Virus record (IMG/VR): IMGVR_UViG_3300031227_000274
Location: 1-29,822 of that record
Reading direction: 5' to 3' (one strand)
DNA: 29,822 bases
DNA from: a virus
In this document: positions 3,595 through 27,510 of the stretch, in pieces
Numbering within the stretch: position 1 is the first letter of the stretch
How the letters are laid out: each line of letters begins with the position of its first letter
The notes under the pieces: generated by a model
Told to the model about the DNA's origin: nothing
Databases searched by the model: none
What the model saw: only the letters and a program-made list of their open reading frames with translations
Translations under genes and position numbers: made by a program

Positions 3595-4326
3595 TTATAG
3601 CGTGCAAATGCGGCAACCGTCGCCGCGCTTATATTCCTTTGGAATCCGGCCCGCGCGGAATTCTTCACGTAAATCGTACAGCGCGCTCGGCCACGTATCT
3701 CTTTGTGGCGAGCGGTACGTATGCCCCGTGCGGAGCTCGTCGTCGATGGCGCTCTCGTAAGTTTCCGGGTATTGAATAGATAGCGTGTACCATTCAAAAA
3801 GAGTTTGATAATAACAGCGCGCACAATCAGTACGTGGCGGAATAACAACGCCCTTCGATTCTAAATAGCAAGTGACGTCTCCGTATGTCCAACCCCACTC
3901 CGCAAGCGGCGAGCGCTGGTCGAGAAACAAGTCGAGCTCATAGTCGACGCCCTCTCTCGACTCCTCGTCGGCCCGTAACCCGACATATACCGTTGCGGGA
4001 AGTCTGTTTATTATCCACGCTTGAAACGGTACTATTTTAAGCATACGGGTGCAGAATCGAGCGCGCCAATTCGGCAACATGTTTTGTTCTTTTGTGAGCT
4101 CAACAAGGCTATACCCCGCAGAGACGTACGTTAGCGGCGACCCGATTATACTTTCCATGTTTCGCCAGTGTTTGACAACTGGCGGCAACTCGTCGCCCGT
4201 CGGCGAGCACACAAAGGAATAATTGCGCGGTTCGACTTCCGCGAGGCGAAGAGCCATTGCGGTGGAATCGCGCCCGCCGGACAATGCGACGACGTGAGTA
4301 CGCTCTCTATCCGTTGTTGTTGACAT
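3595..4326 (-). CDS. PP-loop protein, PAPS-reductase/DndC-like family
   Basis: A 243-residue protein in the adenine nucleotide alpha-hydrolase superfamily. The ATP pyrophosphatase loop SGGRDS is at residues 16-21, a FCTRMLK motif is near 92, and GLRADEESREG, typical of phage PAPS-reductase-like proteins, starts at 116. Two CxxC pairs (CARC at 168-171, CRIC at 238-241) could hold a metal or Fe-S cluster, as in DndC/TtcA-type enzymes. Such proteins reduce PAPS or activate substrates for sulphur insertion; phage members have unproven substrates. I chose the ATG at 4326 because the GAGAGGAA ribosome site lies before it, although the frame is open upstream. It overlaps the previous gene by 20 bases. 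Nucleic-acid modification is an inference. Confidence 0.8.
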   Translation of the reverse strand: MSTTTDRERTHVVALSGGRDSTAMALRLAEVEPRNYSFVCSPTGDELPPVVKHWRNMESIIGSPLTYVSAGYSLVELTKEQNMLPNWRARFCTRMLKIVPFQAWIINRLPATVYVGLRADEESREGVDYELDLFLDQRSPLAEWGWTYGDVTCYLESKGVVIPPRTDCARCYYQTLFEWYTLSIQYPETYESAIDDELRTGHTYRSPQRDTWPSALYDLREEFRAGRIPKEYKRGDGCRICTL

Positions 4327-4344
4327 AATCTCTGTGTTCCTCTC
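4303..4344 (-). repeat. Translation-start cassette, copy 2
   Basis: Second copy of the 42-bp initiation cassette also present at 3541-3582, with five differences. It spans the ribosome site (GAGAGGAACACAGAGA) and first eight codons of the PP-loop gene and also the last codons of the overlapping upstream gene. Confidence 0.75.
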
Positions 4345-4654
4345 TATGTTCAAGGGTTGCCCTATAAATCGCGAGTCGCTGTACATTATTCCGTTTCAGC
4401 GCCGACAGATCCGACGGCCCGGTTTCTTGTGATATTGCGATCGACTTTTCAATGCGCGTATATACTCCGCGCCGCCGCGTTCGCTGTAACGTGTATCCGT
4501 GATACGCCATGAAACGCAGAAACCGCAACACAGTCGCGTTATCCGACGTGCGCGACAGGTCTCGAAACGTGCGCCAGAAACCTCTTGTGCGGCAACGGTC
4601 GGGCAAGTGCCTGTCGCTTTGTATCCATTCCTTTATGGTCTGTCTCTTTTTCAT
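4307..4654 (-). CDS. Small very basic hypothetical protein
   Basis: A 115-residue Arg-rich protein (MKKRQTIKEWIQSDRHLPDR...). Residues 30-65 (FRDLSRTSDNATVLRFLRFM) could be a helical DNA- or RNA-binding segment. It is the first gene after the hexamer array and the long hairpin, with its ATG only 17 bases from the hairpin base. The ribosome site is weak (GGAAT directly before the start), so the hairpin may control its translation. The 3' end overlaps the PP-loop gene. Function unknown. Confidence 0.5.
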   Translation of the reverse strand: MKKRQTIKEWIQSDRHLPDRCRTRGFWRTFRDLSRTSDNATVLRFLRFMAYHGYTLQRTRRRGVYTRIEKSIAISQETGPSDLSALKRNNVQRLAIYRATLEHREEHRDYVNNNG

Positions 4655-5213: not shown

Positions 5214-5599
5214 TATCTCATTTCCTCTCTGTGTTGTTGTTCGATTGCGCTTTCGATTATGTCGCCGCAATCGTGGCAGTACATACCGCCTATATCGTAT
5301 ATTTGCCCGGTCGTTGGTCGCACGTCGACGTGCGCGCAACGGTTGTCGGGGTTCAAGTGGATAATATAATATAGCTTTGTGAAACCCTCGTACGGACAGA
5401 TACCGCGCGTGATGTTCTCAACGGGTATCGTCCGAGTCGTTGCTGTATATCCTCTATGAAACGTAACGGTTTCGATCTCGTCGCGCTTGTCCCATATCAG
5501 GCGGCGCCAACGGGCGGTTGCTTCTCTGTATTCTTTGTGTTTAAAACCGCACGCGACTTGCTCGTACCAGTAATGCGTCAGTATTAAGTGTAGATTCAT
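5213..5599 (-). CDS. ASCH/PUA-like domain protein with C-terminal CxxC
   Basis: A 128-residue protein. The N-terminus (LHLILTHYWYEQVACGFKHK, then EYREATARWRRLI) and the FHRGYT motif fit small phage ASCH-domain proteins, whose PUA-like fold is linked to RNA or modified-base binding. The C-terminal MYCHDCGDIIE has a CxxC pair that may, with CAHVD, bind zinc. It overlaps its neighbours on both sides as TAATG and follows the transposase directly. The RNA-binding role is a family-level suggestion only. Confidence 0.7.
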   Translation of the reverse strand: MNLHLILTHYWYEQVACGFKHKEYREATARWRRLIWDKRDEIETVTFHRGYTATTRTIPVENITRGICPYEGFTKLYYIIHLNPDNRCAHVDVRPTTGQIYDIGGMYCHDCGDIIESAIEQQHREEMR

Positions 5600-7659
5600 T
5601 ATAGTAAGTCCATTAGATCGGCGCCGTCGTCGAGTCCGTCGTTGTTTGATTCGTTCGGGTGTAGCTCTGTTGCGGCGTTTAGATCGGCGTCGCTAATCGT
5701 TGTCTCGGACACTTCGCGCGCGAGCTCGCCCTCGTGCTGTTCAGCAGATGTCGCTCTGGCAATCCCGCGCGAGACTTTCGCTGTTGCGCGAGTCTTGCCA
5801 GACACAGGCGGCGCCAGGGCGAGAAAGTTGTCGACGATCTTCTCATTATGCGTCATGTCGTCGAGCCGCTTTTGCAGAGCCGGAACATTGCGGCGCCGTA
5901 CGGCCGACAGCGTACGATTGAGCGAGCCTTGCTTTTGCGCGATCTGTTCGCCGAGCGCGGCCGCGTCGCCACGGTGTACTCCATGTACGCGCGGGATAGA
6001 GCAGACGTACCGACCAGCGCCGGTCGTTAGGTGTAACGTGTCCGCGTTCTCTTTGTCGTAATACGCGAGAAACTCGGCGCCCTCAACGAGCGCGAGCTCG
6101 GCAGTGTCACGCCAGGTAAACTTACGCCCGCCAAGCTCGAACGTTATCTCGCCGCCCGTAACAACGCTCACTCGTCGATGTTCGCCGAGCAATGTTGGCA
6201 TAACAGACAGAGACAGCTTTCCAAAGTCGCAACCGTGCGACAGGCGCCGCATACGTTCGAGCGGCGACTCTTTACGAGTCTGCGTCAATATCATGTCGAG
6301 TTGCGTATCAGATATGCCGACCATTTCGTGCGCGGGCCGCCACTCGTCAAGATACTCGTACCGCCATTCCAGAACGTCGTCAAACGACTCAAGAACATGG
6401 TCCGTACGGTTATTGAGTGTACGAAAGATATGCTCTAAACTAAGCCGCGCCTCTGGCAAGTGCATAAACGGTAAGCGTGCCTCGCGGCGTAGCTCTGGCG
6501 GCAAGTATTGGCCCGCCTTTACCAGCGCCCGCGCCTCTGCGATCTTGGCCGGTACGTTCGCCGGTTGCTTTCGATAGTTCGATCCTATTTGACCAGGCAA
6601 CGTCGCCGCCTCGTTATGTAGCCGATTGAAATACGATTCAATCCAAGCTTTACCGAGACAATTACCGACTGCGCGATCAGCAAACCCGAACACGTTACCC
6701 GTAACCATGCTCGTATATACAACCCGCACTTGCCCGCCCGTTGCCTCTTTGATTGCCGCCGCGTCAGGCTCCGCAATAGTCGCCGTACCACGCTCGCAAA
6801 TGATCGTCATTTTATAGTCGCACGGATACCCATACTTACATAACAGATCCGCGACCAGCGCCCGAGCGTCGCGAGCTTTGAGACCATGATTCGATTGACC
6901 GTCGTCTTTCGGCGACTCCGGTCGTAACCCAAAACCAAGGGCAACGCCTGTCGACACGTCGAGCCCGAGAATACCGTTCAACTGTACGACCGCGCCTTTC
7001 TGGTCAATGATTCGGAAGTCAGAACGCCAATCATCGAGCACTATGTACTCAAGAAACCGCAACCCGTCGCGAGTACCGATAACCTTTGGCAACACTTCGC
7101 GAGCCGCCGCCACGCCGTACCGAGTCAACGCCGTTTCTGCTTTATCAGGTTTGTAATTGATCAATGTTTTGTAATTCCATCCGCGCGGCAAGTCAGGCGG
7201 GCACGCGATCGGCAACGGCTTCTCGGGCGCCTCTCGCATAAACCAATCGCGCCAAGTACCGTAACCCGGTATCTCGTCGCCATTACGCCAGGCGCGCAAC
7301 AACGCGCGGTGTGCCGGTTTACACTTACGTTGATTCTGATCACACAGCGACCGCCAGTACCCGAGAAACTCGGGCGACAACCGACGCGATACCGGCCGCG
7401 ACTTGCTCTCATTTACCAGAGCACGCCAATCGTGCTCGCTATGCCGCCAGAGATCCAGCTTGCGCCGCAACGTTACCGCAGACCAACCACGCAACCCGGC
7501 AAACTCTCGCGCTACCGTTTCGAGTGCGATCTTTAGTACTGGCGCCGACTCAATGCGAGTAAGCGCGCCGAGCATCATACGTACGCTGTCGCGCTCGGTC
7601 TCTGGCAACGTCATAAACTCGGCAAGATCAGCGGGCGGTATGAGTTGAGATAGCTTCAA
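5599..7659 (-). CDS. Mu-type DDE transposase (MuA homologue)
   Basis: A 686-residue transposase close in length to MuA (663). The N-terminal 200 residues hold the helical DNA-binding region. The RNase H-like core has VLDDW (Asp209/210), then LGLDVSTGVALGFGLRPE. Where the second Asp is expected there is IICERGTATI (Glu289). ESYFNRLHNEAATLPGQIG follows, with the likely catalytic Glu341. A beta-barrel region (about 500-560) and an acidic C-terminal tail complete it; in MuA this end contacts MuB and ClpX. The start is TTG, overlapping the upstream stop as TTGA, with GTGAGGA eight to nine bases upstream. It would catalyse replicative transposition of the phage. Confidence 0.92.
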   Translation of the reverse strand: MKLSQLIPPADLAEFMTLPETERDSVRMMLGALTRIESAPVLKIALETVAREFAGLRGWSAVTLRRKLDLWRHSEHDWRALVNESKSRPVSRRLSPEFLGYWRSLCDQNQRKCKPAHRALLRAWRNGDEIPGYGTWRDWFMREAPEKPLPIACPPDLPRGWNYKTLINYKPDKAETALTRYGVAAAREVLPKVIGTRDGLRFLEYIVLDDWRSDFRIIDQKGAVVQLNGILGLDVSTGVALGFGLRPESPKDDGQSNHGLKARDARALVADLLCKYGYPCDYKMTIICERGTATIAEPDAAAIKEATGGQVRVVYTSMVTGNVFGFADRAVGNCLGKAWIESYFNRLHNEAATLPGQIGSNYRKQPANVPAKIAEARALVKAGQYLPPELRREARLPFMHLPEARLSLEHIFRTLNNRTDHVLESFDDVLEWRYEYLDEWRPAHEMVGISDTQLDMILTQTRKESPLERMRRLSHGCDFGKLSLSVMPTLLGEHRRVSVVTGGEITFELGGRKFTWRDTAELALVEGAEFLAYYDKENADTLHLTTGAGRYVCSIPRVHGVHRGDAAALGEQIAQKQGSLNRTLSAVRRRNVPALQKRLDDMTHNEKIVDNFLALAPPVSGKTRATAKVSRGIARATSAEQHEGELAREVSETTISDADLNAATELHPNESNNDGLDDGADLMDLL

Positions 7660-10918: not shown

Positions 10919-11237
10919 TCTCGTCCTCTCGTGTTGCGTTGTTCGTTGCGTGTAATACAAAACGTAATACAATTCGCGTATGCCGTCAACCCCCTAAGTT
11001 GCACGAAATGCAGGCGGCAAAACCGGCACTATTTTGCAGGGCAAAACGGCACTGGTGCCGTTTTATTGCTCGTTATACCGCAAATACTTACGACTTTACC
11101 AATATAGCTTTTTGGTGTTTTGGGAGTGCGTGGTAATCTGGTTGCTGTAACAGGGTTTATCTCTCTCTCTGTTGTGTTGATGTTGTTTGGCGGCGGGTCG
11201 ACGAGGCCCGTTCGCCATCTTAAGAAAGGGCGGGCAA
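10919..11237. promoter_or_regulatory. Divergent control region between early and late operons
   Basis: These 319 bases hold no convincing gene and separate the two operons. On the early side GTAATACAA is repeated at 10952-10960 and 10964-10972. TTGACG on the minus strand (10984-10989) lies 14 bases from TATTAC (10964-10969), a possible but short-spaced promoter. The middle has the palindrome at 11043-11064 and a related half-site near 11019-11029. The late side is T-rich, without a promoter I would call; Mu late promoters need an activator and lack a good -35. Operators for the repressor probably lie here. Confidence 0.55.
11043..11064. promoter_or_regulatory. Palindrome with 10-bp arms, candidate operator or terminator
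   Basis: AAAACGGCAC and GTGCCGTTTT flank a TG spacer, a perfect pairing. A near copy of the left arm with one extra C (GCAAAACCGGCAC) lies 17 bases before it, and TTTTGC-AGG-GCAAAA forms a second overlapping palindrome at 11032-11046. Clustered related half-sites between divergent operons look more like an operator than a terminator, although the A- and T-rich flanks could also allow bidirectional termination. Confidence 0.6.
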
Positions 11238-11645
11238 GTGCTGCAAACAGCGCAAGTCGGGGGCGACTACTTACAAGGATGGTTGACGGCGGCGGCGTTC
11301 GTGTTAGTTATTGCAACGCAGATTACGAGCATCATTCGCACGTTCCGGCGGCGCCCGCCGATCGAGGCCGAGTACGCAACTAAGGCAGAGATAAAAGACC
11401 AAGTCAAAACGTGTGAGCATAAGCGCGAGGGGTTAGCAGGTGGACAGTCTAAAACACGCGAAGATATTACAGCATTGCGAGAGCATACCGACGAGAGGCT
11501 CGCCGAGCTTGCGAGCGGTATCAGCAATAGGCTTGACGCGTTTGACCAAAAGAGCGAGGAACGCGCGAGCGCACTGCATTCCCGCGTTAATCATTTCGTC
11601 GAACAAGTGAGCATCTTAAAAGGTACCGTCGACATGGTGAAATAG
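11238..11645 (+). CDS. Mu gp25-like (DUF2730-like) membrane coiled-coil protein
   Basis: A 135-residue protein with one transmembrane helix (WLTAAAFVLVIATQITSII) near the N-terminus, then RTFRRRPP, then a long charged coiled coil to the end. The basic cluster after the helix puts the coiled coil in the cytoplasm. Layout and position match Mu gp25 (DUF2730), first of the gp25-gp26-gp27-gp28 series. I chose the GTG at 11238 because AAGAAAGGG lies just upstream; a TTG at 11187 would add 17 residues but has no ribosome site. It is not a good Rz-type spanin, since the topology is reversed. Confidence 0.65.
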   Translation: MLQTAQVGGDYLQGWLTAAAFVLVIATQITSIIRTFRRRPPIEAEYATKAEIKDQVKTCEHKREGLAGGQSKTREDITALREHTDERLAELASGISNRLDAFDQKSEERASALHSRVNHFVEQVSILKGTVDMVK

Positions 11646-11648
11646 AAC

Positions 11649-11957
11649 ATGAATAAATCAATCAAGCGCAAGAGTCAGCCCGAGCGCCCGCTAATGAGTG
11701 ATAACCAGGCAGAGAAAGTGCGAGTCGAGATTCTCAATGCGCTGTCAGAGTGTCAACCGTTTGGCCTGAAAGAGACAATACTTTGCAATCAGCTAAACGT
11801 TATGCTCGACGGCATTGTTGATACGGACGGTTTGAAAGCGCAACTTAAAGCATTGCGCGAGCTCGGCCTCGTATCTTTCAAGTTGCCCGTTGGGTCGGAA
11901 GTTCGTCGTTGGCACATAACCGCCGACGGCAACACAGAGCGCAACGCGCTACAGTAA
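11649..11957 (+). CDS. Mu gp26-like winged-helix protein
   Basis: A 102-residue protein with a winged-helix pattern: ILNALSECQPFGLKETILC, then DTDGLKAQLKALRELGLVSF, then the wing RRWHITADGNTE. It follows the gp25-like gene by three bases. The same small winged-helix protein precedes gp27 in Mu-like genomes, where its role is unclear. An internal ATG at residue 16 (MSDNQAEKV) could be an alternative start. Confidence 0.65.
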   Translation: MNKSIKRKSQPERPLMSDNQAEKVRVEILNALSECQPFGLKETILCNQLNVMLDGIVDTDGLKAQLKALRELGLVSFKLPVGSEVRRWHITADGNTERNALQ

Positions 11958-11971
11958 GGAGTAATGATAAC

Positions 11972-12469
11972 ATGACAAAAAAACTACAACGTATGAGCCT
12001 TGTGAATCCGTGGCCCGCGCTTGCGATTGGTGTCCTGTTTGTGATCGCCCTTACGATGATGTTTTGCGGCTCGCCCGCTCGCGCGGAGCTTACGCCAGCG
12101 ATATTAGTTGTTACGAATAGCCGTACGGTCGCTGGCATTGTCTCAATTACTGACGTTGCCTATTACGAACAAAACTCTATTAGGATAAACGCTACGGCGT
12201 TAGACGCTGACGGTGCGGTACAGGTGCTTACAAACATGATTATTACTGGCACGCTTGCGGACGCTAGTCAGGCGAGCTCTGTTGTTGACATGATCGGCTT
12301 TACCGGGACGGTACTCGTTGCGACCGCTGGTACATGGACCGTAACGACCACCGTGCCGAGTAACACGGTCGGGACTATGTACTTTACTCCGACGCTGACG
12401 TTTACTAGCGCGGCGGCCGACGTGGTCTTTTCGTATGAACGTTCAAAGTTCCCAACACAGGATTTATAA
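11972..12469 (+). CDS. Exported protein inserted between gp26 and gp27 homologues
   Basis: A 165-residue protein with a strong Sec signal: basic start MTKKLQR, hydrophobic core (ALAIGVLFVIALTMMFCG) and a likely cleavage after SPARA at about residue 38. The mature part is Thr/Ala/Val rich and all-beta in pattern (TAGTWTVTTTVPSNTVG, FTPTLTFTSAAADVVF). AAGGAG lies ten bases before the ATG. A stem-loop (12480-12517) follows directly. The gene interrupts the usual gp26-gp27 order and its product should go to the periplasm or surface, so it looks like a moron. No family is recognised. Confidence 0.7.
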   Translation: MTKKLQRMSLVNPWPALAIGVLFVIALTMMFCGSPARAELTPAILVVTNSRTVAGIVSITDVAYYEQNSIRINATALDADGAVQVLTNMIITGTLADASQASSVVDMIGFTGTVLVATAGTWTVTTTVPSNTVGTMYFTPTLTFTSAAADVVFSYERSKFPTQDL

Positions 12470-12528: not shown

Positions 12529-13068
12529 ATGACAAAGCGTAAAGCCAGATCAGACAGTAAGTTGCACGGGTTGCCGCCTGAGCAATCGGAGCAATTGCAA
12601 GATTGGTTGCTCGCGGGTATGTCGTATCGCGTCGTACTAAAGTTGCTTGCGAAAGAGTACGGCGTCAAAACGTCGCTCTCGTCGCTGTCGACTTATTATC
12701 ACGACGTTGTACCGTTCGCCGTAATCGAGAAGCGGCGCCGCGCTGTTGCAATGGCGAATAGTATTGCGGTTGACGCCAAAGCGGCGCCAGGACAGATCGA
12801 GGATGCAACAATAGAGTTGCTCGCGCAAAAGGCGTTCGAGCTCGCTATCGCGCCGAACGTTGACCCAAAGGCCGTAAAGCAATTGTTCTCGTTAGTACTC
12901 AAGGCGCGCGACCAGGCGAACGACGAGAAAGCGCTTGACCTGAAACTGCGACAGTACGAGGACAAGCTAAACGCGATCGCCGAGCTCGCCAGTACTGGCA
13001 AGAAGCGCAAAGGCGGCATTTCGCAAGCGACTATTGAAGAGATCGAACGTAAAGCGAACCTATTATAA
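12529..13068 (+). CDS. Small terminase subunit, Mu gp27-like (DUF3486)
   Basis: A 179-residue protein in the gp27 position, overlapping the large terminase by one base (TAATG). The N-terminal part (KLHGLPPEQSEQLQDWLLAG, then YRVVLKLLAKEYGVKTSLSS) is the HTH expected of a small terminase, and a long helical region follows, as in DUF3486. It would recognise phage DNA for headful packaging. No good ribosome site is visible; the start is preceded by the stem-loop. Confidence 0.8.
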   Translation: MTKRKARSDSKLHGLPPEQSEQLQDWLLAGMSYRVVLKLLAKEYGVKTSLSSLSTYYHDVVPFAVIEKRRRAVAMANSIAVDAKAAPGQIEDATIELLAQKAFELAIAPNVDPKAVKQLFSLVLKARDQANDEKALDLKLRQYEDKLNAIAELASTGKKRKGGISQATIEEIERKANLL

Positions 13069-14501
13069 TGAAGACTGTACGCGCACAGAATAAGCCAGCG
13101 GATCTCGAAACGCTTATGCTCGGGTACCAATCTCGCTGGATACTCGACCGCACTCGTTTGAAGATCGCCGAAAAGGCGCGTCAAATCGGTTGGACATGGG
13201 CAACTGCTTATGCCCTTGTTCGTCGCAAATCCCGCAACGACGCCACACTCGACGCATGGGTCAGTAGTCGCGACGAGCTACAGGCGCGGCTATTCCTCAA
13301 AGATTGCAAGAGCTTTGCAGACATGTTGCATATAGGCGCCAAGGATCTCGGCGAGTGTGTCTTTACAGAGGGCGACAAAGTCTATAGCGCCTACGTATTG
13401 CGATTCGATAACGGGTTGCGTATCCATTCCATGAGTAGTAATCCCGACGCGCAAGCGGGCAAGCGTGGCGACAGAGTTCTCGACGAGTTTGCTTTGCATC
13501 CCGACCCGCGCACGCTGTATTCGATCGCGTACCCCGGCATTACGTGGGGCGGCCAACTGGAAATGTTCAGCACGCACAGGGGATCTGATAACTACTTTAA
13601 TACGCTTATACAAGAGATCAAGGGCGACAACCCCAAAGGGTTTAGCTTGCACACTGTCACGCTACAGGACGCGCTCGACGACGGTTTTCTTTTCAAGTTG
13701 CAACAGAAGTTGCCCAAAGACGACGAGCGGCAAGACATGGTCGAGGCGGACTACTTTGACTTTACCCGTTCGCAATGCGCCGACGAGGATACGTTTAATC
13801 AAGAGTATATGTGCAAGCCGTCCGACGACGCGACGGCGTTTCTTGGATACGATGAAATAGGCAAGTGTTATTTCGACGTCGACGAGGCGAAAGTCGAGTG
13901 CGACTGGTCGTTGCAAAAGTTGTCGCGCGTCAACAACCCTCTCTATTTCGGGCTTGATATGGGACGGAAAAACGATCTATCCGACCTGTACGTTTTCGAG
14001 CACGTCGGCGGCGTGCTAGTAGAGCGAGCACACGAGTCGTTGCAGAATAGGACTTTTCGCGAACAGAAATCGACCTTTTGGCCCTACTTTGAATTGCCGC
14101 AAATGCGCCGAGGACAGATTGACAATACCGGGCTCGGTATGCAGTTCGCAGAAGAGGCGCAAGAGCGGTTCGGCTCGTTCAAGGTCGAGGCGGTTACGTT
14201 TACCAATCAGGCAAAGAGCGACCTTGCATACGGGTTACGAACACGAATCGAGGATGTACGGATAAGGTTCAAGCGTACGCCTAAAGTCGAGTCGGCGTTA
14301 CGGGCTATCAAAAAAGAGACAACGTCGACCGGCGCGATACGGTTTGCCGCCGATCGCGGGCCGGGCGGTCATGCTGACGAGTTTTGGTCAATGGCGATGA
14401 CTGTTGGCGCGGCGGCTGGTAAAGACGGCGGCACAGACTTTGAACCAATTACACAACGCGGCCGAGTCGCTAACCGGCGTACTAGCGGGGGTATAATGTG
14501 A
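13068..14501 (+). CDS. Large terminase subunit, Mu gp28-like
   Basis: A 477-residue packaging motor. The Walker A-like motif is the Mu form AEKARQIGWTWATA (about residues 34-47), Walker B is DRVLDEF near 140, and coupling residues follow (MFSTHRGSDN). The C-terminal nuclease has GLDMGRKNDLSDLYVFE, IDNTGLGMQFAEEAQ and HADEFWSM, giving the acidic metal-binding residues. It cuts and pumps DNA into the prohead from the phage end into the host flank. The gene overlaps the portal gene by four bases. Confidence 0.9.
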   Translation: MKTVRAQNKPADLETLMLGYQSRWILDRTRLKIAEKARQIGWTWATAYALVRRKSRNDATLDAWVSSRDELQARLFLKDCKSFADMLHIGAKDLGECVFTEGDKVYSAYVLRFDNGLRIHSMSSNPDAQAGKRGDRVLDEFALHPDPRTLYSIAYPGITWGGQLEMFSTHRGSDNYFNTLIQEIKGDNPKGFSLHTVTLQDALDDGFLFKLQQKLPKDDERQDMVEADYFDFTRSQCADEDTFNQEYMCKPSDDATAFLGYDEIGKCYFDVDEAKVECDWSLQKLSRVNNPLYFGLDMGRKNDLSDLYVFEHVGGVLVERAHESLQNRTFREQKSTFWPYFELPQMRRGQIDNTGLGMQFAEEAQERFGSFKVEAVTFTNQAKSDLAYGLRTRIEDVRIRFKRTPKVESALRAIKKETTSTGAIRFAADRGPGGHADEFWSMAMTVGAAAGKDGGTDFEPITQRGRVANRRTSGGIM

Positions 14502-16072
14502 GTGCTTATAATGGAGTCGTTGACACAGAGCGAGTAAGACGATCGACGTTGACCCGCTTTAATCCGATCTCAACGCTAACGCCGTTGACCTTGACGCAAC
14601 AGATCAACAGTTTCTACGCGGGCAACATCGGCCCGGCCGCGCGGACATGGGAAGCAATCAGGCGCCGCGACGACATACACGCGAGCGTTGTTACAAAGCG
14701 GTATAAGAGCATTTCTCGGTACGGTTGGGAAATCGTCGCCGTTGACGACAGTCCCGAGGCCGAGGCCGACAAGAAAGCGCTCGAATACTTCTATAACAAC
14801 TTGCAAGCGACGAGCGCTATCAACCGTAACGAGCTCGGCGGCGTGCGATTGCTTATACAACAGATGATGGACGCAACCGGCAAAGGGCTCGCCAGTCACG
14901 AAATGATTATGCGCCCGAGCGTTGCCGGGTTGACCGCGCTCTTTTCTTTTGTGCCGTTATGGTTTTTTGAAAACACAACTGGCAAGCTCCGATACTTACC
15001 GACCGACAACGCGACAGCTGGCGTGCCGCTTGTAGCAGGCGAATGGCTCGTAACAGCTGGCGCCCGTCTTATGGAAGCGTCGAGCATTGCGTATATGTAC
15101 AAAGTGTTGAGCCTTAAAGACTGGGTCATATTCAACGAGCGCAACGGTATGCCCGGCTTTATAGGTCGCACTAGCGCCGCCAAAGGCACGACCGAATGGA
15201 ATAACCTTGTTGACGCCGTCAATGCTCTCTCTAACGACTTTGCCGCCGTGCTCAATATCGGCGACGGTATCGAGGTCTTGGATCTCAAGGGCGGAAACGC
15301 TACGCCATACGCGCCGCTTGTCGAGCGTATGGATCGCGCAACAACGGCGATATGGCGCGGCGCGGATCTCTCGACCATGAGTGCAACTGGCGGCGGCGAC
15401 AGTACAGGCGCGAGCATACAGGCCGACGAGAGCTCGTTACTAGAGGATGACGACGCAGAGATGATCTCGGAAACTCTAAACGAGCAAGTCGATCGCTTTG
15501 TAATTCAGTGGTACCGAGGCTCGAACGTGCCGCGCGCGTATTTCAAACTAAACAGGCCCGATCGCCGCAACATTACGCAAGATATCGCAACCGACACATT
15601 CTTGATCGAGAGCGGAGTGCCTGTCTCTGTCAACGATCTAAACGAGCGCTACGCTCGACCAACGCCCGAGGAGGGCGAGATACTTGCTAAACGAATCGTC
15701 ACCACGCCAGGGCTCGGAGTCGGCCTGCCTGCCAAATCTGCCACTCCGAGCCCGTTTTCGAATGTCAACGATACGCTACGCGACGCCGACCGAATCGTTA
15801 CCGAACGGCTCGAAAAGAACGGCGCCGCCGAGCTCGCACAGGGACAGGCCGACAAGCTCGCCGCCGTACGTGCAAGGATCAACGACGTGTTGGCGATCAC
15901 TAACGAGCGCCAGATGGTCGCCGAGGCGATCAAACTACGCGCAGAACTACCCGACCTATTGCAAGACATGTTCAAAGACGACACAACACAGAAAACCATA
16001 CAAGGCATATTGACCGCCTCGCTATTCAACGGCGCCGGTCTCGGCCTGCAGGAGAGAGAGCCAAATGTCTAA
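14498..16072 (+). CDS. Portal protein, Mu gp29-like (DUF935)
   Basis: A 524-residue protein immediately after the terminase, starting with GTG in a four-base overlap (ATGTGA). Typical DUF935 features are the N-terminal LTLTQQINSFYAGN region, RRDDIHASVVTKRYKSISRY, the middle FVPLWFFENTTGKLRYL and the WVIFNERNGMPGFIGR segment. The C-terminal region is helical. It forms the ring through which DNA enters the head. It overlaps the patatin-like gene by eight bases. Confidence 0.9.
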   Translation: MSAYNGVVDTERVRRSTLTRFNPISTLTPLTLTQQINSFYAGNIGPAARTWEAIRRRDDIHASVVTKRYKSISRYGWEIVAVDDSPEAEADKKALEYFYNNLQATSAINRNELGGVRLLIQQMMDATGKGLASHEMIMRPSVAGLTALFSFVPLWFFENTTGKLRYLPTDNATAGVPLVAGEWLVTAGARLMEASSIAYMYKVLSLKDWVIFNERNGMPGFIGRTSAAKGTTEWNNLVDAVNALSNDFAAVLNIGDGIEVLDLKGGNATPYAPLVERMDRATTAIWRGADLSTMSATGGGDSTGASIQADESSLLEDDDAEMISETLNEQVDRFVIQWYRGSNVPRAYFKLNRPDRRNITQDIATDTFLIESGVPVSVNDLNERYARPTPEEGEILAKRIVTTPGLGVGLPAKSATPSPFSNVNDTLRDADRIVTERLEKNGAAELAQGQADKLAAVRARINDVLAITNERQMVAEAIKLRAELPDLLQDMFKDDTTQKTIQGILTASLFNGAGLGLQEREPNV

Positions 16073-16880
16073 AGAGAAAAGTATTCTATTCGTACGCAGT
16101 GGCGGCGGTATGCCAGGCGTTGATATACACGTCGGGATCTGGCGCGCGTTACAGTCGCGCGGTATCGTCTCGACAGCTTGCGCCGGTACTAGCGCTGGCG
16201 CTCTCGTATCGTCGCTCGACGCGTACGGGCTCGACGCAAACCAAGCTTGGCACATTGTAAGCGGTTTGAACGATCGCGACGTATACCGCAAACGGTTCGC
16301 GTACAAGCTACGTAAGCGTGCGTCGATTATGGACGCCCGACCGGCGATCACTACCATTGCCCGCTCGTTATCTGGTCGTGAACAGCAAAAACCATTGCAA
16401 GTGAGCGTACTCAACGAGGCGACCGGCGAGTCGATCGACGTTACTCGCCCAAAGATTGCCGACATATACGCGTCGATGGCGATACAAGGCGTGTTCTTGC
16501 CGTGCAAAGGCCGGTCCGACGGCGGGCCGGTCGACTACTTGCCGTTGCCGTGCGAGGAGATATGCGCTGCATACAATGAGACTTGGTTATTACTTGCCGC
16601 GCCGAGCTGGCATTACAAGGCCGAGCGAGAGTCGGTTGTATCCCGTTTCTTAATGGCGATGAGTGCTATGATACAAGATCAAGTCGGCCGCACGCTCGAA
16701 CGTGCCGTTGCGCTACAGGCTAAAGGGTACGTCATACGGATCATACGGCCCGAGGTCGGCGCCGGGTCGAGTTGCCTGCATTTCGATCACGATCTAATCG
16801 ACCAGGCGTACGAATCAACACAGCGCCAGATAAACGAACAATTGAACGGACCCAAAAACGACAAGAAAGCCGAGGATTAG
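16065..16880 (+). CDS. Patatin-like phospholipase in the head module
   Basis: A 271-residue protein with all patatin signatures: oxyanion loop SGGGMPG (12-18), nucleophile elbow GTSAG (41-45, Ser43), the block ASMAIQGVFLP and the catalytic Asp in DGG (Asp152). No signal peptide or membrane segment is visible, so it acts in the cytoplasm or virion. Patatins hydrolyse acyl esters of phospholipids. Its start overlaps the portal gene by eight bases and the protease follows four bases after its stop, so it is co-expressed with capsid genes. It may be packaged in the virion for entry, or may damage membranes late in infection. Both are inference. The family call is strong. Confidence 0.9.
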   Translation: MSKEKSILFVRSGGGMPGVDIHVGIWRALQSRGIVSTACAGTSAGALVSSLDAYGLDANQAWHIVSGLNDRDVYRKRFAYKLRKRASIMDARPAITTIARSLSGREQQKPLQVSVLNEATGESIDVTRPKIADIYASMAIQGVFLPCKGRSDGGPVDYLPLPCEEICAAYNETWLLLAAPSWHYKAERESVVSRFLMAMSAMIQDQVGRTLERAVALQAKGYVIRIIRPEVGAGSSCLHFDHDLIDQAYESTQRQINEQLNGPKNDKKAED

Positions 16881-16884
16881 CAAA

Positions 16885-18105
16885 ATGTTAAAACACGCGA
16901 GAATGGCCTGTACGGCGTTTTTATCTCTTCTATGGGTGATGTGGGGCGAAAACATGCGGTCGCAAAAATGCAATAGTACCTCGTCAAAATGCAACGGGGT
17001 TGCAGCGCTATTGTATCCCTCGCGGCGCAAGATTTTCGCAAACGAGGGCGATTCGTCGCCTTTTGTCGCATTTTGCAATCAACTCGACGACAACAACCCG
17101 GCTCGCCTGACGATACCGTACGGCGACCATCCAGTATCGGGCGGTCGTGGCAAAGAAGTACAGCGGCTAGATATCGACTCGGCGCGAGCTCTGTGCAACG
17201 AGTTCGCCACTGTCGCTCGTAAACACTCTGGCACGTTCGGCGGGTTTCCGTTCTATAAAGGCCATCCAGACGACCCGCGTTTTCGCGATCGCGACAAGGA
17301 TCAAGGCGCATACGGTTGGATTACGAGCATTGCCGCTCTATCAAACGAGCTCGAATTGACCGTTGCGTGGTCAAATGAAGCTCTTGAGTTGATCGCTGAA
17401 AAGCGGTTTCGATTTTTCTCGCCACGTTGGGACGCTGTCCCGGCTGGTCGCGAGAATGGCGTAAAGGTCTGGTCGCCGATCAGTCTAATAAGCGCCGGAC
17501 TAACAAACAGGCCAAATATTGCAGTTCGGCCAATCAGTAACGAGGAGTTAAATGCTATGACAAGAGAAGAACTAATCGCAATGTTTGGCTTAGATGAGGC
17601 CGCGACCGACGAGGAAATACAGGCCGCGCTTAGTGCCGCCGTTGCCGCACAAGCGCGCGTTACCGAACTAGAGGCACAACTCGCCGAGTTGCAGGGTGTC
17701 TCTGAAACGGCCGCCGCTGAAATGGCAAACGAGCGCGCCGCGCGTACCGCCGCCGAGACAGCGCTTGCAACGTCAAGCTCGAATCTTGTAACCGTTACCG
17801 GCGAACGTAACGAGGCAATCGCAAACGAGGCGGTCGCCAGTGGGCGGATTACACTCGCCGAGCATGTCGCGACCGTTGTTGCGCTCTGTAATGATTATGA
17901 CAAAGGTGTCGCGGCGCTTAAGGATAAGAAGTCAGTCAAGACCGGGCCCGCAGTAAAGCCAGGCGGCGACAGGCAACTCGACGGCTCGATAGGTCACGAG
18001 ATACGAACGCTCGTCAACGAGGTTATGGCAAGCAATCCGAAAATGTCGCGTGACGCCGCATGGGCAATCGCTAAGCAGCGCAATCCGACTTTGTTTGAGG
18101 GGTAA
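16885..18105 (+). CDS. Prohead protease-scaffold, Mu gpI-like
   Basis: A 406-residue protein. The protease part occupies about residues 40-215, with motifs of the Mu I family: FPFYKGHPDDPRF, the RFFSPRWDA strand and WSPISLISAGLTNRPNI. The rest (225-380) is an Ala/Glu-rich coiled coil (AALSAAVAAQARVTELEAQL, then LAELQG), typical of a scaffold, ending in a basic tail. In Mu the protease cleaves the scaffold and itself during head maturation. The N-terminal 40 residues are Cys-containing and hydrophobic in part (ACTAFLSLLWVMW), and unusual for the family. GAGGAT lies before the ATG. Confidence 0.82.
   Translation: MLKHARMACTAFLSLLWVMWGENMRSQKCNSTSSKCNGVAALLYPSRRKIFANEGDSSPFVAFCNQLDDNNPARLTIPYGDHPVSGGRGKEVQRLDIDSARALCNEFATVARKHSGTFGGFPFYKGHPDDPRFRDRDKDQGAYGWITSIAALSNELELTVAWSNEALELIAEKRFRFFSPRWDAVPAGRENGVKVWSPISLISAGLTNRPNIAVRPISNEELNAMTREELIAMFGLDEAATDEEIQAALSAAVAAQARVTELEAQLAELQGVSETAAAEMANERAARTAAETALATSSSNLVTVTGERNEAIANEAVASGRITLAEHVATVVALCNDYDKGVAALKDKKSVKTGPAVKPGGDRQLDGSIGHEIRTLVNEVMASNPKMSRDAAWAIAKQRNPTLFEG
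17557..18105 (+). CDS. Nested scaffold from an internal start (Mu gpZ-like)
   Basis: An in-frame ATG at 17557 (residue 225 of the protease) is preceded nine bases upstream by a strong ribosome site, GAGGAG. It would give a 182-residue protein starting MTREELIAMFGLDEAATDEE, exactly the scaffold coiled-coil part. In Mu, gpZ is made from an internal start in gene I in the same way. The site is seen in the sequence; its use is inferred. Confidence 0.7.
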   Translation: MTREELIAMFGLDEAATDEEIQAALSAAVAAQARVTELEAQLAELQGVSETAAAEMANERAARTAAETALATSSSNLVTVTGERNEAIANEAVASGRITLAEHVATVVALCNDYDKGVAALKDKKSVKTGPAVKPGGDRQLDGSIGHEIRTLVNEVMASNPKMSRDAAWAIAKQRNPTLFEG

Positions 18106-18183: not shown

Positions 18184-18645
18184 GTGAACAGAATAAAGCG
18201 AATCATTCGCGCTTTGCGCGGTATACGGTCATTTAGCAATATCGGCGAAGGCACGTTCGAGGGCGGTCTTATCTCAAAATTGAGCGACGCCGCGATAACA
18301 GCGAGATACACTCTCGGCAAGTTTGGGTCGGACGTTGATCATTTTGCGCTATGTGGCGCAAACGACTTGCCGCTCGGCGTCATTACCGACGAGCCCGCCG
18401 CCGCCGAGATCGAAACAAACTTGACCTTACTCGGGAGTTCTGGCGATCGCACATTGCTCGTCGTCGCGAGCGAGGCGATTACATACGGACAACTCGTCTA
18501 TACCGCCGCTGACGGCAAAGTACAAAACGAGCCCGCTGTTGCTGGCACTTATTATCTTGTTGGTCGCGCGCTTATGAGTGCGTCTGGCGATGGTATAGAG
18601 TTCGAGATCGAGCCCGCATTCCCTATTGGCTTTGTAGTGCCGTAA
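18184..18645 (+). CDS. Capsid decoration protein (DUF2190-like)
   Basis: A 153-residue protein between scaffold and capsid, the usual place of a head-stabilising protein. GTG start at 18184 after ACGGAGG. After a basic leader (MNRIKRIIRALRG), the body is beta-rich with Gly turns: PLGVITDEPAAAEIE, then ASEAITYGQLVYTAADGKV and GTYYLVGRALMSASGDGI. This is the pattern of DUF2190/decoration proteins that bind the outside of HK97-type capsids. Confidence 0.65.
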   Translation: MNRIKRIIRALRGIRSFSNIGEGTFEGGLISKLSDAAITARYTLGKFGSDVDHFALCGANDLPLGVITDEPAAAEIETNLTLLGSSGDRTLLVVASEAITYGQLVYTAADGKVQNEPAVAGTYYLVGRALMSASGDGIEFEIEPAFPIGFVVP

Positions 18646-18717
18646 TAGAGACAACGCGACATAGCAGAGAGCTAGAGAGACACTCAAACGAATAAGCTAA
18701 TAATAATGGAGAATACC

Positions 18718-19698
18718 ATGTCACAGAAAAGACAGATTATGACTAACGACGCGGATATGCCGAGCGCTTTTGCTGACGACGTCGGAGTGCCCGGTGTTGT
18801 GTCGCTCTCGAATGAGGAACGGTTTACCGCTGTAAACTTTTCGCAAGCGTTGACCGAGTACGCTATCGGCTGGACCGACCCAAACAACTTGCAAGCTGAG
18901 CTCGATATGTTGGCGCCGCCCGTGCCCACGGCTCGCCGGTTTGAGTACAAGAGCGCGACCAATAGAGAGTCGTTTTTTGTCGATACAAAGCGCGATATTC
19001 GTGCAATCGGCGGTGCGTTCCAGCGCGTCGAGTTCAAAGGCACAAGTGTTGACGCTCGCACGATCAATAAAGGGCTCACGATTACGCTCGACCGTGACGA
19101 GATGGTCGACGGCTCGCAAGAGTCCGCTGTCCGCCAGTTGCAAAACAGGCTATTGCGATCAGAGCTGTTACGTACAGTAACCTTGATCGCTGGCGCCGCC
19201 TCGAATACAGGCAAGACATGGGATTCGAGCGCAGATCCCGACACAGATATCTTGACCGATATGGTTACAGGCGCCGACGCTCGCGGTTTCCAGAGCAATC
19301 TGGTCGCTTACGGTGAAACCGCATGGAATCTGCGACTAACATCGTTCAGAGCACAGGACAAGGCCGGACAGGGCGCGAGCTCGTCTCTGACTCCACAAGA
19401 GGCCGCTGTGTTTGCTGGCGCCGATCGTGGTTTCGTGTCACGCACACGGTATCAGTCTGGCTCTGCGAACAAGACAAAGATGCTCGGTAATTACGTCTTT
19501 ATGTACTACGCCGACGCGGACATAAGCAAAGACGACCCGAGCAACGTCAAGCGTTTCATTACTCCGCCCGAGGGCGGCGGCACGTTCCGCGTGTTTGTCG
19601 ACGATAGCAAGATGAAAACCGTCGACGTCAGTGTCGAGCATTACTCGCTTATCGCGGTAACAAGCTCGCTCGGTATGAGAATGTTTACTGTTAGCTGA
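18718..19698 (+). CDS. Major capsid protein
   Basis: A 326-residue protein, the expected size and position for the capsid subunit of a Mu-like phage. The region FSQALTEYAIGWTDPNNLQA, then LDMLAPPVPTARRFEYK, and GLTITLDRDEM fit the capsid proteins of related phages. It has few Cys and no signal peptide. I chose the ATG at 18718 because GGAGA lies six to seven bases before it; an ATG at 18706 would add four residues and has no ribosome site. A stem-loop follows the gene. Confidence 0.78.
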   Translation: MSQKRQIMTNDADMPSAFADDVGVPGVVSLSNEERFTAVNFSQALTEYAIGWTDPNNLQAELDMLAPPVPTARRFEYKSATNRESFFVDTKRDIRAIGGAFQRVEFKGTSVDARTINKGLTITLDRDEMVDGSQESAVRQLQNRLLRSELLRTVTLIAGAASNTGKTWDSSADPDTDILTDMVTGADARGFQSNLVAYGETAWNLRLTSFRAQDKAGQGASSSLTPQEAAVFAGADRGFVSRTRYQSGSANKTKMLGNYVFMYYADADISKDDPSNVKRFITPPEGGGTFRVFVDDSKMKTVDVSVEHYSLIAVTSSLGMRMFTVS

Positions 19699-19765: not shown

Positions 19766-20404
19766 ATGTTGAAGAAAGTTTCGTTTTCGAGCTTGTTGGT
19801 TGTGCTGGCGGTTGCCGGTCTTATTGCCGTATTGACGGGCGTTTTTGGCGCGGAGGAGGCTAGGGCCGATTTCCTAATACGTCAGACGTCGAGCAACGAT
19901 ACCACGTCCGTTGGGTCGCAGATCGTTACAAACACGTTGGATGTTGAGGGCGCCGCAACGTTCGATTCGACCGTTAACGCGGCCGGTGCTCTGACTGCAA
20001 GCGGTACTGTCCACGCTGTCGGCGCGGTTACTGCTGATTCCACGCTCAATGTTGCGGGCGGTGTTACCTGTAGCGGCGCGGTCTCCGCAGTCTCGCTCAC
20101 GCTCACAGGTGATTTTATTATGCCTGTTACGGTACAGACAGTCACAAACGAACAGGTCGTTACACTCTCGCCAGGCGGCAACGTCTTGCGGGCGTCTGGA
20201 CTGCCTAGCGGCAATACAAATAATTGTACATTGTCGGCCGTATCCGCTGGCGCGCCGTTCTATATTGTCAACGGGTCGGAGGAGACTAACTTGCTCGCCT
20301 TTGCACAGTCGGGTTACTGGAAAGGCGCCGCCGTCGAGCTCGCGGTTGACGAAATGGCGGTTGCGTTTAGCTCCGGTACCGGGTCCGTTCACCACGTAGA
20401 ATAA
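19766..20404 (+). CDS. Exported repetitive beta-rich protein flanked by terminators
   Basis: A 212-residue protein with a clear signal peptide: MLKK, a hydrophobic core (LLVVLAVAGLIAVLTGVFG) and likely cleavage after EEARA near residue 33. The next hundred residues are imperfect repeats of the form xxAxGALTASGTVHAVGAVT, which suggests a beta-helix or a stalk like phage fibres. The C-terminal domain (GNVLRASGLPSGNTNNC, then SGYWKGAAVELAVDEM) resembles a compact beta fold. It is isolated between hairpins at 19711-19737 and 20415-20451. A surface or periplasmic role is inferred; whether it is a virion component is unknown. Confidence 0.7.
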   Translation: MLKKVSFSSLLVVLAVAGLIAVLTGVFGAEEARADFLIRQTSSNDTTSVGSQIVTNTLDVEGAATFDSTVNAAGALTASGTVHAVGAVTADSTLNVAGGVTCSGAVSAVSLTLTGDFIMPVTVQTVTNEQVVTLSPGGNVLRASGLPSGNTNNCTLSAVSAGAPFYIVNGSEETNLLAFAQSGYWKGAAVELAVDEMAVAFSSGTGSVHHVE

Positions 20405-23793: not shown

Positions 23794-26700
23794 ATGCGAA
23801 AAAGAATCTTGATTGCAACGGTGTTGCTTATAGCCTGCAACAGCGTTGCACAACTCTCGCTGACTAACGCGCCAGGCCCAACGAGTATTACGTCGACGAG
23901 CGCTGTAATGCGAGCGACGATCGTTACGAACGCGCACACTAATGCACAGGTCGCTTTCTATTGGGGCACGTTCGACGCGACAACTAACGTCGCGACATGG
24001 TCGAGCACGTCGGCGGTTATCAACTCGACCGGCGGTGTCGTGAGTTTTACTAATACAGCGCTTTCTCCGAACGTGCGTTATTACTATCGTATGCACGGGA
24101 CGAACACTAATACGTCGACGTGGGCCGCGCCAACGACAAACTTTTACACAATTGCCAGCGCGCCAACGAGTACGCCAGTTGCAGAGACTTTCGCCGTTAT
24201 GGTCGACATAAACGACCTTGTTGTATACCCGGCCGACTTTTTCGCAGATAACGGCGTTACAACGACCGGCGCCGTCGACGGGCTCGACGGGCGGATCACG
24301 ACCAACTCGGGATTGATCGCCACGAACACGGCCGCGATCGCTAATATTGAAACCGACTATTTAGCGCGTGACGGGAGCGTTACGCCGTCGGCCGGGTTTG
24401 ATTGGGCCGAACAGGGTATCTCTAACGGCGGCATTTTCGAGGCAAGCCAATTCGCGGGCACTGGCGTCGCCGACACTAACGTCGTGATTTTTGGCCGCAA
24501 TAGCGCGACACGTTGGGCGGGCGGTGGCGTGAATGACGGCTGCTTGGCGTTTGTGGGTACCGAAACGAACCTTGTGCCGCCGGGCTCGGTATGGTTGCAG
24601 ACGCGGACATACTCAACAAACGCGGTCTATATCTCAGACGGTATCGGCGCGTACTACATTTTCCATTTAGGCGATAGCGCCTTTCGTAATTATTTCGAGT
24701 GTTGGGGTCACAATATACCGGGTACCAGCCAACGCTTTGATTTAGGCGATCCTAACAGGCCGTGGCGGCGTGGGTATATCGACCACGTAATAGGTCTAAC
24801 GGGTACGTTCAATCGTGTTGTGTCGCCTGAGTACGTCGCGGGTACGTCGATAGGCGCGACAGGTACCGACGGCAACGGCAACGTTATACAAGGCGGCATT
24901 GTGACGACGATTGGCAGTGTCAGTACAACAAACGTACTAAACTCGCTAGTCGTTGCCAGCGGCACGCCAGGCGCCGAGCTTACAACTAACGGTACCTTTA
25001 CAGGCAGTACTGACGGTTGGGCGCTCTCTGGCGCCTCGTACGTGCAGAGCGGTACTTATTCAAATACTATTCTAATTTTAGCGGGCGCCAGTGGCACGTT
25101 AACGCCAAGCAATAATATTTCACAAGGTACGGGCAGTACGTACCAGGCGCAATTTGATCTTGTTATCAATAACGAGGCTGTAACTAATAGCGTAATATTT
25201 GGCGGGTTGACCAGTAGCTTTGTAACTGCTGAGTCAGCAACAATGGTTGTTAAGGTCGGCACTATCAACGAGAGCAATTTTGTGTTGACCGTTATCGCGG
25301 GTACCGGCTTCCCGGTATACGTCGACAACGTAAGCGTAAAACAGTTGACCGGCGGCACTATCCACGCTGGCGGCACTATTTATGCCGCTGAAATATTGGT
25401 CAATGGTCAGTCGATAACCGTGCCAGATGGCGTTACGCCGTGGACAAATAACGGTCTATGGTACGTGGCAATCGACGGGTCAGACGACAACGACGGTCGC
25501 AGTATTCGTACACCTAAAGCTACTGTGACCAACGCTATTGCTGGCGCGTTATCCGCTGGCGCCGCAACAAACGTGCAAGTTGTCCTCGTTGGTCCGGGCG
25601 AATATTGTATGGATGCTGGTATCGTTTTTACCAATGCGTTTGTGCATTTACAGGGATATTCCAGCGTTGATACTCCGCGTCTGATATTCAATTCCGGCGT
25701 AGCGATCACGTTTGCTGGCGGCGGCGGTTGGCTTTCTGATATCCATGTTCAGGGTGAAATAGCGGCGGGAGGAATGTTGATTCCAGATACGGCCGCCGCT
25801 GATGATACCTACTATTTTCGTAATGTAAGAATCGAGATTGCCGACTATACTAATGGTACGGAAAAAGGCATCAATGTGCGCGGCGGCAAAGTCGAAATGC
25901 AGAATGTCGAAATTGAAGTCGAGATTGCATTCGAGGGTATTCCGCGTGCTTCTGGTTCGGTTATATGGCTCACAAACAACGCGTCGTTACACATGTACAG
26001 TGTTGAAGCGTATTCAGAATCCAGCACAACAAACACGGATCTATCTGTAATCGCTGATTGGTCAACTGGTCAGGTTGTCATTATCAATTCTCATTTTGCG
26101 TTGGACGTGCCGAATGCTGATTACATTGGCCAGCATTTTGCGTATAGAAATATAGGTGTTGGCACAGATAAAACAATAATGGGTTCAAGATTTGAGATTA
26201 CAGGCGCGTCGACGAGCTCACTCACGGAGGCCGCTGTCTTTAGTGTTGAGGGCGGCGGTGCCATACGCTCGGCAAACAATGTCGTTATCGTTAGTGGGTA
26301 TAACGGCCACAATCATTTTGCTTATATCACAAATGGTTCAACACTCTATTCGCATTTTGACGACATTCAAGCGGAAGCCGGGGTTGCATTGTTAGATAGT
26401 TCATGCACATATGATCAAGCTAATAGTCCAGCCGACGGATTGTTCGACGTTGATTTTATAACGCTTGGTGGCGAGACTCGCGGTGCATGGCCTGCATTTG
26501 AGCGAAACGTTGCCGGTACTTCAATCTCTTATCTCGATATTGGCTCGCCCTCTTTTCTGACCGCTGCAATCGGATACAACAACATAGCGGCTATTGACGG
26601 GTCGGTAACAGACATGACCGATCTCGACGGCTTTAATACTAAAGTCGACGCGGTCTTAACCGAATGGGTATCTGTCGACGAGAACGGCATGATTGACAGT

Positions 26701-27510
26701 GCCGTTGGATGGGAATCAAACACGTTCGTTGATTCGCACTTAACACCCGCTAACGCAGAATGTTCGCTCTTATACACCAATCTCGAAATTGGTACCGAAT
26801 ACGTATACAAGTTCTACTCGTCGCGAGATTCCAGCGCCGGGCATAGTCCGCCGCGTTCGCTACAGGTTGGCATGTACGACGTAACAAACGCGATCCAGTA
26901 CGTAACCAACCTCACGGCAACAACAGCATTTACCAATACCCCGGCCAATGGCACAAATTGGCTACTCTTCACATGTTCAAGTGATAACGCCAACAAAGGC
27001 GCGCCGCTCAATGGCGTCGAAATGACGTTTAGCGCCCAGGCAAGCGCGATACAACCCGACGGATCAGTAGCGTACACCGGCTATCAATCATACGATGGTT
27101 ATGGTTTTACTAATGTTGGTGCTGGCTATGCAACTAATATTCAAATCATGGGCTCTATACTCGATGAGAACGGTAACTACGGTTCCGCTGGTCAGGCATG
27201 GCTCACGTCCGGTGATGGTGAAAGCAATTACTGGGGAACGGTGGCGGCCGGCGGCGGCGCTGGTAGTCAGACGCCATACACCAACACTCACGACGCAGCA
27301 GGATTTGACATTACCAACCTCAATGCCATAGTTCACACGTCTGTCAACGGCGTAACGACGTGGGAATGGGGCTATAGGGCAACACACCCAACGCAACTGA
27401 CTAACCAGATTCACTACTACCAAATGACAGTCGGCGACACAGATTGGGGCTTCGATACGTGGTGGGTATCATCTCCTGCAATCGTCACTAATAAATCGCG
27501 GGGTAACTAA
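23794..27510 (+). CDS. Giant fibre/adhesin with lipobox, FN3-like and beta-helix domains
   Basis: A 1238-residue protein. It starts MRKRILIATVLLIAC, with LIAC a possible lipobox, or cleavage after SVAQ. Residues 20-125 are FN3-like (FYWGTFDATTN, YYYRMHGTNTN). A short helical region follows (DGLDGRITTNSGL). Residues 390-520 look like a carbohydrate-binding module (TDGWALSGASYVQSG, VYVDNVSVKQL). Residues 551-890 are a beta-helix opened by YVAIDGSDDNDG, as in pectate-lyase-like folds. A jelly-roll-like domain covers about 950-1090. Position after tail genes suggests a tail fibre, yet phage fibres lack export signals. The beta-helix part is visibly AT-richer than the rest, a sign of transfer. The export signal raises the option of a surface adhesin. 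Confidence 0.72.
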   Translation: MRKRILIATVLLIACNSVAQLSLTNAPGPTSITSTSAVMRATIVTNAHTNAQVAFYWGTFDATTNVATWSSTSAVINSTGGVVSFTNTALSPNVRYYYRMHGTNTNTSTWAAPTTNFYTIASAPTSTPVAETFAVMVDINDLVVYPADFFADNGVTTTGAVDGLDGRITTNSGLIATNTAAIANIETDYLARDGSVTPSAGFDWAEQGISNGGIFEASQFAGTGVADTNVVIFGRNSATRWAGGGVNDGCLAFVGTETNLVPPGSVWLQTRTYSTNAVYISDGIGAYYIFHLGDSAFRNYFECWGHNIPGTSQRFDLGDPNRPWRRGYIDHVIGLTGTFNRVVSPEYVAGTSIGATGTDGNGNVIQGGIVTTIGSVSTTNVLNSLVVASGTPGAELTTNGTFTGSTDGWALSGASYVQSGTYSNTILILAGASGTLTPSNNISQGTGSTYQAQFDLVINNEAVTNSVIFGGLTSSFVTAESATMVVKVGTINESNFVLTVIAGTGFPVYVDNVSVKQLTGGTIHAGGTIYAAEILVNGQSITVPDGVTPWTNNGLWYVAIDGSDDNDGRSIRTPKATVTNAIAGALSAGAATNVQVVLVGPGEYCMDAGIVFTNAFVHLQGYSSVDTPRLIFNSGVAITFAGGGGWLSDIHVQGEIAAGGMLIPDTAAADDTYYFRNVRIEIADYTNGTEKGINVRGGKVEMQNVEIEVEIAFEGIPRASGSVIWLTNNASLHMYSVEAYSESSTTNTDLSVIADWSTGQVVIINSHFALDVPNADYIGQHFAYRNIGVGTDKTIMGSRFEITGASTSSLTEAAVFSVEGGGAIRSANNVVIVSGYNGHNHFAYITNGSTLYSHFDDIQAEAGVALLDSSCTYDQANSPADGLFDVDFITLGGETRGAWPAFERNVAGTSISYLDIGSPSFLTAAIGYNNIAAIDGSVTDMTDLDGFNTKVDAVLTEWVSVDENGMIDSAVGWESNTFVDSHLTPANAECSLLYTNLEIGTEYVYKFYSSRDSSAGHSPPRSLQVGMYDVTNAIQYVTNLTATTAFTNTPANGTNWLLFTCSSDNANKGAPLNGVEMTFSAQASAIQPDGSVAYTGYQSYDGYGFTNVGAGYATNIQIMGSILDENGNYGSAGQAWLTSGDGESNYWGTVAAGGGAGSQTPYTNTHDAAGFDITNLNAIVHTSVNGVTTWEWGYRATHPTQLTNQIHYYQMTVGDTDWGFDTWWVSSPAIVTNKSRGN

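Follow-up and report, generated by a model that had tools for sequence, protein, structure and literature searches.

What does a patatin-like phospholipase do in the head-gene operon of a transposable phage? The question is raised by a linear IMG/VR record, complete at 29,822 bases and hereafter called the window, in which an open reading frame (ORF) for such an enzyme lies between the portal and protease genes. The record is probably partial, since the longer related records measure about 36-43 kb. MuA/MuB-type transposition genes and a Mu-type portal and protease are all present, which marks the window as a Mu-like transposable phage. The genes on which the argument draws are the following.

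2587-3564, minus strand: MuB-type AAA transposition protein
5599-7659, minus strand: MuA-type transposase
11187-11645, plus strand: protein with one membrane segment and a coiled coil; conserved ahead of the terminase in many Mu-like relatives, both those with and those without a patatin
11649-11957, plus strand: small winged-helix-like protein of the pre-terminase block
12529-13068, plus strand: terminase small-subunit-like protein (by position; homologue in L172)
13068-14501, plus strand: terminase large subunit, TerL (profile matches)
14498-16072, plus strand: Mu-type portal protein (Portal_Mu, PF06074, E 8e-53)
16065-16880, plus strand: patatin-like phospholipase, 271 aa from an ATG start (Pfam, alignment, AlphaFold model, PlpD fold match)
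16885-18105, plus strand: Mu-like protease/scaffold, gpI (Mu-like_Pro, PF10123, E 2e-14), true start possibly further in
18184-18645, plus strand: capsid cement/decoration-type protein
18706-19698, plus strand: major capsid protein
28808-29650, plus strand: MuF homologue, displaced from its usual post-portal place

As described in the initial annotation, the patatin gene overlaps the portal gene and precedes that of the protease; the overlap amounts to 8 bases, and 4 bases separate the end of the patatin ORF from the earliest start codon in that of the protease. Elsewhere in the window, the early region contains a PAPS-reductase-like gene (3595-4386), with related genes elsewhere in the set (L167). 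On reading the translations, apparent Sec or lipoprotein signals were found at the start of the products of 11909-12469, 19766-20404, 23794-27510, 27510-28313 and 28298-28714. Such signals are unusual on structural proteins of tailed phages; the late or virion-type proteins that appear to carry them include a 1238-aa fibre-like protein, and relatives L007, L014 and L171 are alike in this respect.

That the window protein has the patatin fold and belongs to the patatin family is practically certain. The Pfam Patatin profile (PF01734) was matched with E 3e-7 and 31.3 bits, above the cut-off of 27.7, and the patatin relatives score 73-85 bits. By sequence, PlpD of Pseudomonas is the nearest solved protein (E 5e-6). 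AlphaFold2 run on the alignment of ten family members gave a model with pLDDT 77.9 and pTM 0.81, the single sequence having yielded an unusable one (pLDDT 35). Compared with solved folds, this model matched PlpD best (Z 25.9, rmsd 2.8 over 233 residues), followed by CapE, CapV, plant patatin (Z 22.5) and iPLA2, all at Z 22-24. Altogether, the Pfam match, the sequence match to PlpD and the fold support identification as a patatin-like lipid hydrolase.

The catalytic residues proposed from the sequence alone, Ser43 and Asp152, proved correct. Serine in the nucleophile elbow (GTSAG) and aspartate in the DGG motif are invariant in all ten aligned members, window included; model confidence is lower around DGG, and the stretch ahead of Asp152 is shorter in the window than in its relatives. 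The dyad, like the fold, is shared with PlpD and other bacterial patatins. Two further features had been called intact. What was named a VFLP block is the form that a GVFPP-type block takes in the window copy; the oxyanion loop is conserved in part. Across the ten members this loop reads GGG-[ML]-P-G-[VL]-D-I-H (GGGMPGVDIH in the window): its glycines are kept in every copy, but the usual patatin Arg/Lys (GGGx[RK]G) is replaced by Pro in 10/10, and compared with PlpD there is one extra loop residue. The subfamily differs from PlpD also in being a stand-alone domain and in a conserved C-terminal FxHxLI..AY motif. PlpD itself is a type Vd secreted protein that carries its own secretion parts. 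Identity to the window patatin ranges from 32 to 40% among the relatives, and dN/dS is about 0.06-0.12 between the two closest patatin relatives compared, which indicates purifying selection.

The exchange of Arg/Lys for Pro makes patatin activity less certain, and, with an Asp-Ile-His that is invariant after the loop, it would fit a protein that has kept the fold without being a lipase, either acting on another acyl-hydrolase substrate or inactivated by its altered loop. Given that the elbow, the aspartate and the loop glycines are all invariant and under purifying selection, such a loss is judged highly unlikely, and the protein is quite probably lipolytic. The fold matches to CapV and CapE (Z 22.5-23.8) suggest instead a phage-carried defence or abortive-infection effector of the CBASS type. 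These patatin-fold phospholipases likewise work inside the cell, but they are nucleotide-activated and partnered by a cyclase, and no such partner was seen here: on reading, neither a CD-NTase nor another partner occurs among the neighbouring translated ORFs of the window and its relatives. In addition, a PADLOC search with the window patatin gave no match, and PlpD is nearer by both sequence and fold. A defence effector is therefore extremely improbable.

The initial annotation had allowed that the gene might fall into a known common phage family. This is not so, as the window patatin matched no PHROG and gave no tblastn match in the 50,697 phage records of INPHARED. With relative L007 as query, INPHARED yielded nothing beyond two contigs named Acinetobacter phage (254 kb) and MT835771, none of which was used; by reading, MT835771 resembles misfiled bacterial DNA. 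The phage patatins described here constitute a new patatin subfamily of mobile placement, found in Mu-like phages of Lentisphaerae/Kiritimatiellota.

About 160 related loci were collected by portal and terminase searches (portal queries gave no match in a first scan of genome contigs). A search with the patatin itself brought the number of distinct phages or prophages that carry one to ten, window counted, two of them in metagenome-assembled genomes (MAGs), one of Lentisphaerae and one of Kiritimatiellota; the same phage may appear under two labels (L014/L172; L173 = L011). With a patatin in 3 of 50 related records, the distribution is patchy. The gene lies between portal and protease in four of the ten phages (window, L007, L014/L172 and L175), between TerL and portal in one (L174), and upstream of TerL in the other five (L167, L169, L170, L171 and L173). 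Its description as embedded in the capsid operon thus holds for the window, but not as a conserved position. In every case, the gene runs in the direction of the late operon that surrounds it and abuts or overlaps its neighbours closely; by reading, it has no evident promoter of its own. Near the patatin of L014, L174 and L175, a protein of 306-324 aa is encoded whose family is unassigned (L014:7831-8805, L174:10097-11062, L175:10117-11037); the L174 and L175 proteins are mutual homologues with a proline-rich start, and that of L014 is of similar size.

In Mu, the slot between portal and protease holds MuF; the initial annotation was right about this, and the same applies to the more distant Mu-like loci. 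Of the loci with both portal and protease identified, 48 have nothing in the slot and 41 have MuF there (these are mostly Mu-like phages at greater distance), and a patatin fills it in four distinct phages; within the window's own clade, the slot is as a rule empty. Mu MuF (gp30) and the window patatin share this slot and are unrelated as proteins. Moreover, the window retains a MuF homologue as its last gene, 31% identical to an L174 protein that matches Phage_Mu_F (E 2.5e-11) and stands directly behind the L174 portal. Because this homologue persists at 28808-29650, the patatin did not replace MuF, and its seat is best read as that of a mobile accessory gene inserted at a junction opened by MuF's downstream move, rather than as the mark of a capsid function. 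In L043 and L085, the MuF homologue has a PBECR2 nuclease-like domain at its C terminus, an arrangement also seen in MuF-linked polymorphic toxins.

Another type of gene, weakly C92-like (permuted papain, YiiX-like), uses both places as the patatin does. It was found in the portal-protease slot of L002 (L002:2400-3095) and L138 (L138:2721-3221), right behind the portal in that slot in L095 (L095:9020-9727) and L110 (L110:8963-9649), and in the lysis locus, beside an M15 endolysin, in L103 (L103:3971-4495). The C92 assignment is weak, with E 0.09 for the slot gene of L002/L095 and 8e-4 for the L103 relative, and the inclusion of these proteins in the combined profile is in part a product of how it was built.

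These positions bear on two further explanations. In the first, the patatin would travel with the virion, inside or on its head or portal, to act on the host membrane at DNA entry. The four phages with the gene between portal and protease are in its favour, as are the portal overlaps of 8 bases in the window and 4 bases in L007, and the equivalent slot of Mu is that of MuF, a virion protein; the authors of the work on phage WO likewise allowed an entry role for its patatin (PMC3173496). However, in half of the family the gene precedes the terminase and has lysis-type genes around it, most of the window's clade has nothing in the slot and MuF itself lies elsewhere, and the patatin domain takes up the whole protein, with no fused packaging or delivery domain, which renders a virion enzyme distinctly unlikely. 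Alternatively, the gene could be a moron-type accessory that remodels the lipids of the lysogen or infected cell, for superinfection exclusion, membrane adaptation or lipid scavenging, with no tie to lysis or the virion. Its patchy occurrence and shifting position are as expected of such cargo, and in L174 and L175 the neighbouring cargo is the protein with the proline-rich start. Set against this, its constant orientation and tight junctions in the late operon and its repeated co-location with lysis-type genes leave a moron an unlikely explanation.

Those lysis-type genes provide the context for the reading that we prefer, in which the patatin is a lysis enzyme. In patatin-free relatives, lysis genes occupy an interval upstream of the conserved pre-terminase block (n = 40 relatives, 137 ORFs). 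The commonest Pfam families there are M15, phage lysozyme, Lipase_3, GTA_holin_3TM, Amidase_3 and GH108, with SLT, CHAP, Phage_holin_10 and a PLD-like family as single members; examples are CHAP in L009, GH108 in L031 and M15 in L084. Lipase_3 was found in six relatives, all without a patatin (L008, L038, L040, L093, L100 and L148), as at L008:2054-2992 (E 1.7e-28). In L148, the lipase occurs together with a muramidase-like gene, a pairing that suggests complement rather than substitution. Since patatin relatives take a lysis-gene position and unrelated lipases are found in the same interval, the late lytic role, one of the two originally proposed, is better supported than the virion role, which the varying position disfavours. 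With an unrelated lipase family sharing the interval, lipid attack at lysis is the simplest common theme.

The lytic proposal had also been based on the absence of a visible endolysin. From the window alone this argument is weak, as the fragment is linear and probably incomplete, but in near-complete relatives none was seen either: among the matches listed (the best 25 of 27 families, E 1e-4) for 128 other ORFs of eight patatin phages, the window included, there is no Pfam endolysin. On the other hand, three patatin phages (L014, L175 and L011) have next to the transposase a small ORF that reads as transglycosylase-like, although Pfam gives no match; the three lie at L194:299-700, L197:9381-9857 and L173:2734-3090, and L095 too carries such an ORF. 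It may also be that Pfam misses endolysins because they have diverged too far, and the records do not cover whole genomes.

A dedicated holin was also sought. The gene for the membrane/coiled-coil protein was rejected as a patatin-specific holin, as it was found in 34 ORFs, mostly at patatin-free loci. In the window, it lies 4.4 kb from the patatin, beside which there is no holin-like gene, and it adjoins the patatin in L170 and L171 only. Neither the 110-aa protein encoded just behind the L171 patatin nor a 92-aa L174 lipoprotein yielded relatives in searches for holin homology.

To our knowledge, the case for phage lysis by lipid attack has been made mainly for special envelopes, as in mycobacteria, or for peptidoglycan-free hosts, as in Wolbachia. 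Mycobacteriophage LysB is a lipolytic lysis enzyme, an alpha/beta hydrolase that cuts mycolyl-arabinogalactan esters; it resembles the present case in attacking lipids at phage lysis, but it is not a patatin. For phage WO, a patatin-based lytic cassette has been proposed (PMC9203015; PMC3173496), the rationale being that peptidoglycan is not detected in Wolbachia and that the phage lacks canonical lysis genes (PMC9203015). The likeness to WO drawn here is one of context: a phage-encoded patatin, for which exit or entry was proposed in WO; no recognised Pfam endolysin, here among the matches listed; and related phages that bear GH108 instead, as some relatives do here. In contrast, the WO patatin neighbours the tail module, accompanied by genes for a holin-like and an ankyrin protein; the present genes belong to Mu-like phages, where they occur in the head operon or at the lysis locus. 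The hosts differ as well. Both host MAGs retain peptidoglycan synthesis genes (FtsW/RodA and transpeptidases), so the WO premise of a host without peptidoglycan fails here and was discarded, for these two MAGs, as an explanation of the lipase. Conservation of cell-division and wall-cluster genes has been reported for both Lentisphaerae and Kiritimatiellota (PMC12283558). With wall genes kept, the patatin alone should not suffice for lysis.

Taken as a late, cytoplasmic lipid hydrolase that aids envelope destruction at lysis, the patatin could act as follows; we give this reading a probability of about one half, and phospholipid activity, timing, target membrane and share in lysis are what we infer. 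Transcription would be late, with the head genes, the one step that operon position supports, indirectly, and the enzyme would accumulate while virions assemble. As reading of the sequence revealed no obvious signal peptide or transmembrane segment, it should reach the inner membrane from the cytoplasmic side. On a trigger, inner-membrane phospholipids would be deacylated and membrane integrity lost, any murein hydrolase would then be freed or given access, and the outer membrane might be attacked once the inner one had opened. The patatin would thereby assist, or partly replace, the usual set of holin, endolysin and spanin. Several points speak against this reading: the window patatin lies outside the lysis locus with no holin alongside, a free cytoplasmic phospholipase would need control to avert early lysis, three patatin phages have transglycosylase-like ORFs, and the hosts have wall-synthesis genes. 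A broader version can be offered only tentatively. In it, swappable envelope-lipid enzymes (patatin, class-3 lipases and perhaps permuted-papain and phospholipase-D-like proteins) would serve as lysis effectors, patatin and papain-like genes would shuttle between the lysis locus and the junction vacated by MuF, and the patatin would replace holin or spanin from the cytoplasm in hosts with peptidoglycan.

For phage biology more generally, a lysis role of this patatin would warn that a seat between head genes does not by itself make a gene product a virion protein. A patatin subfamily that lies outside PHROGs and, by tblastn with the window protein, outside INPHARED recurs in phages of diderm bacteria with cell-wall genes. 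It shares a locus with class-3 lipases and, if lytic, would represent a testable alternative to holins or spanins.
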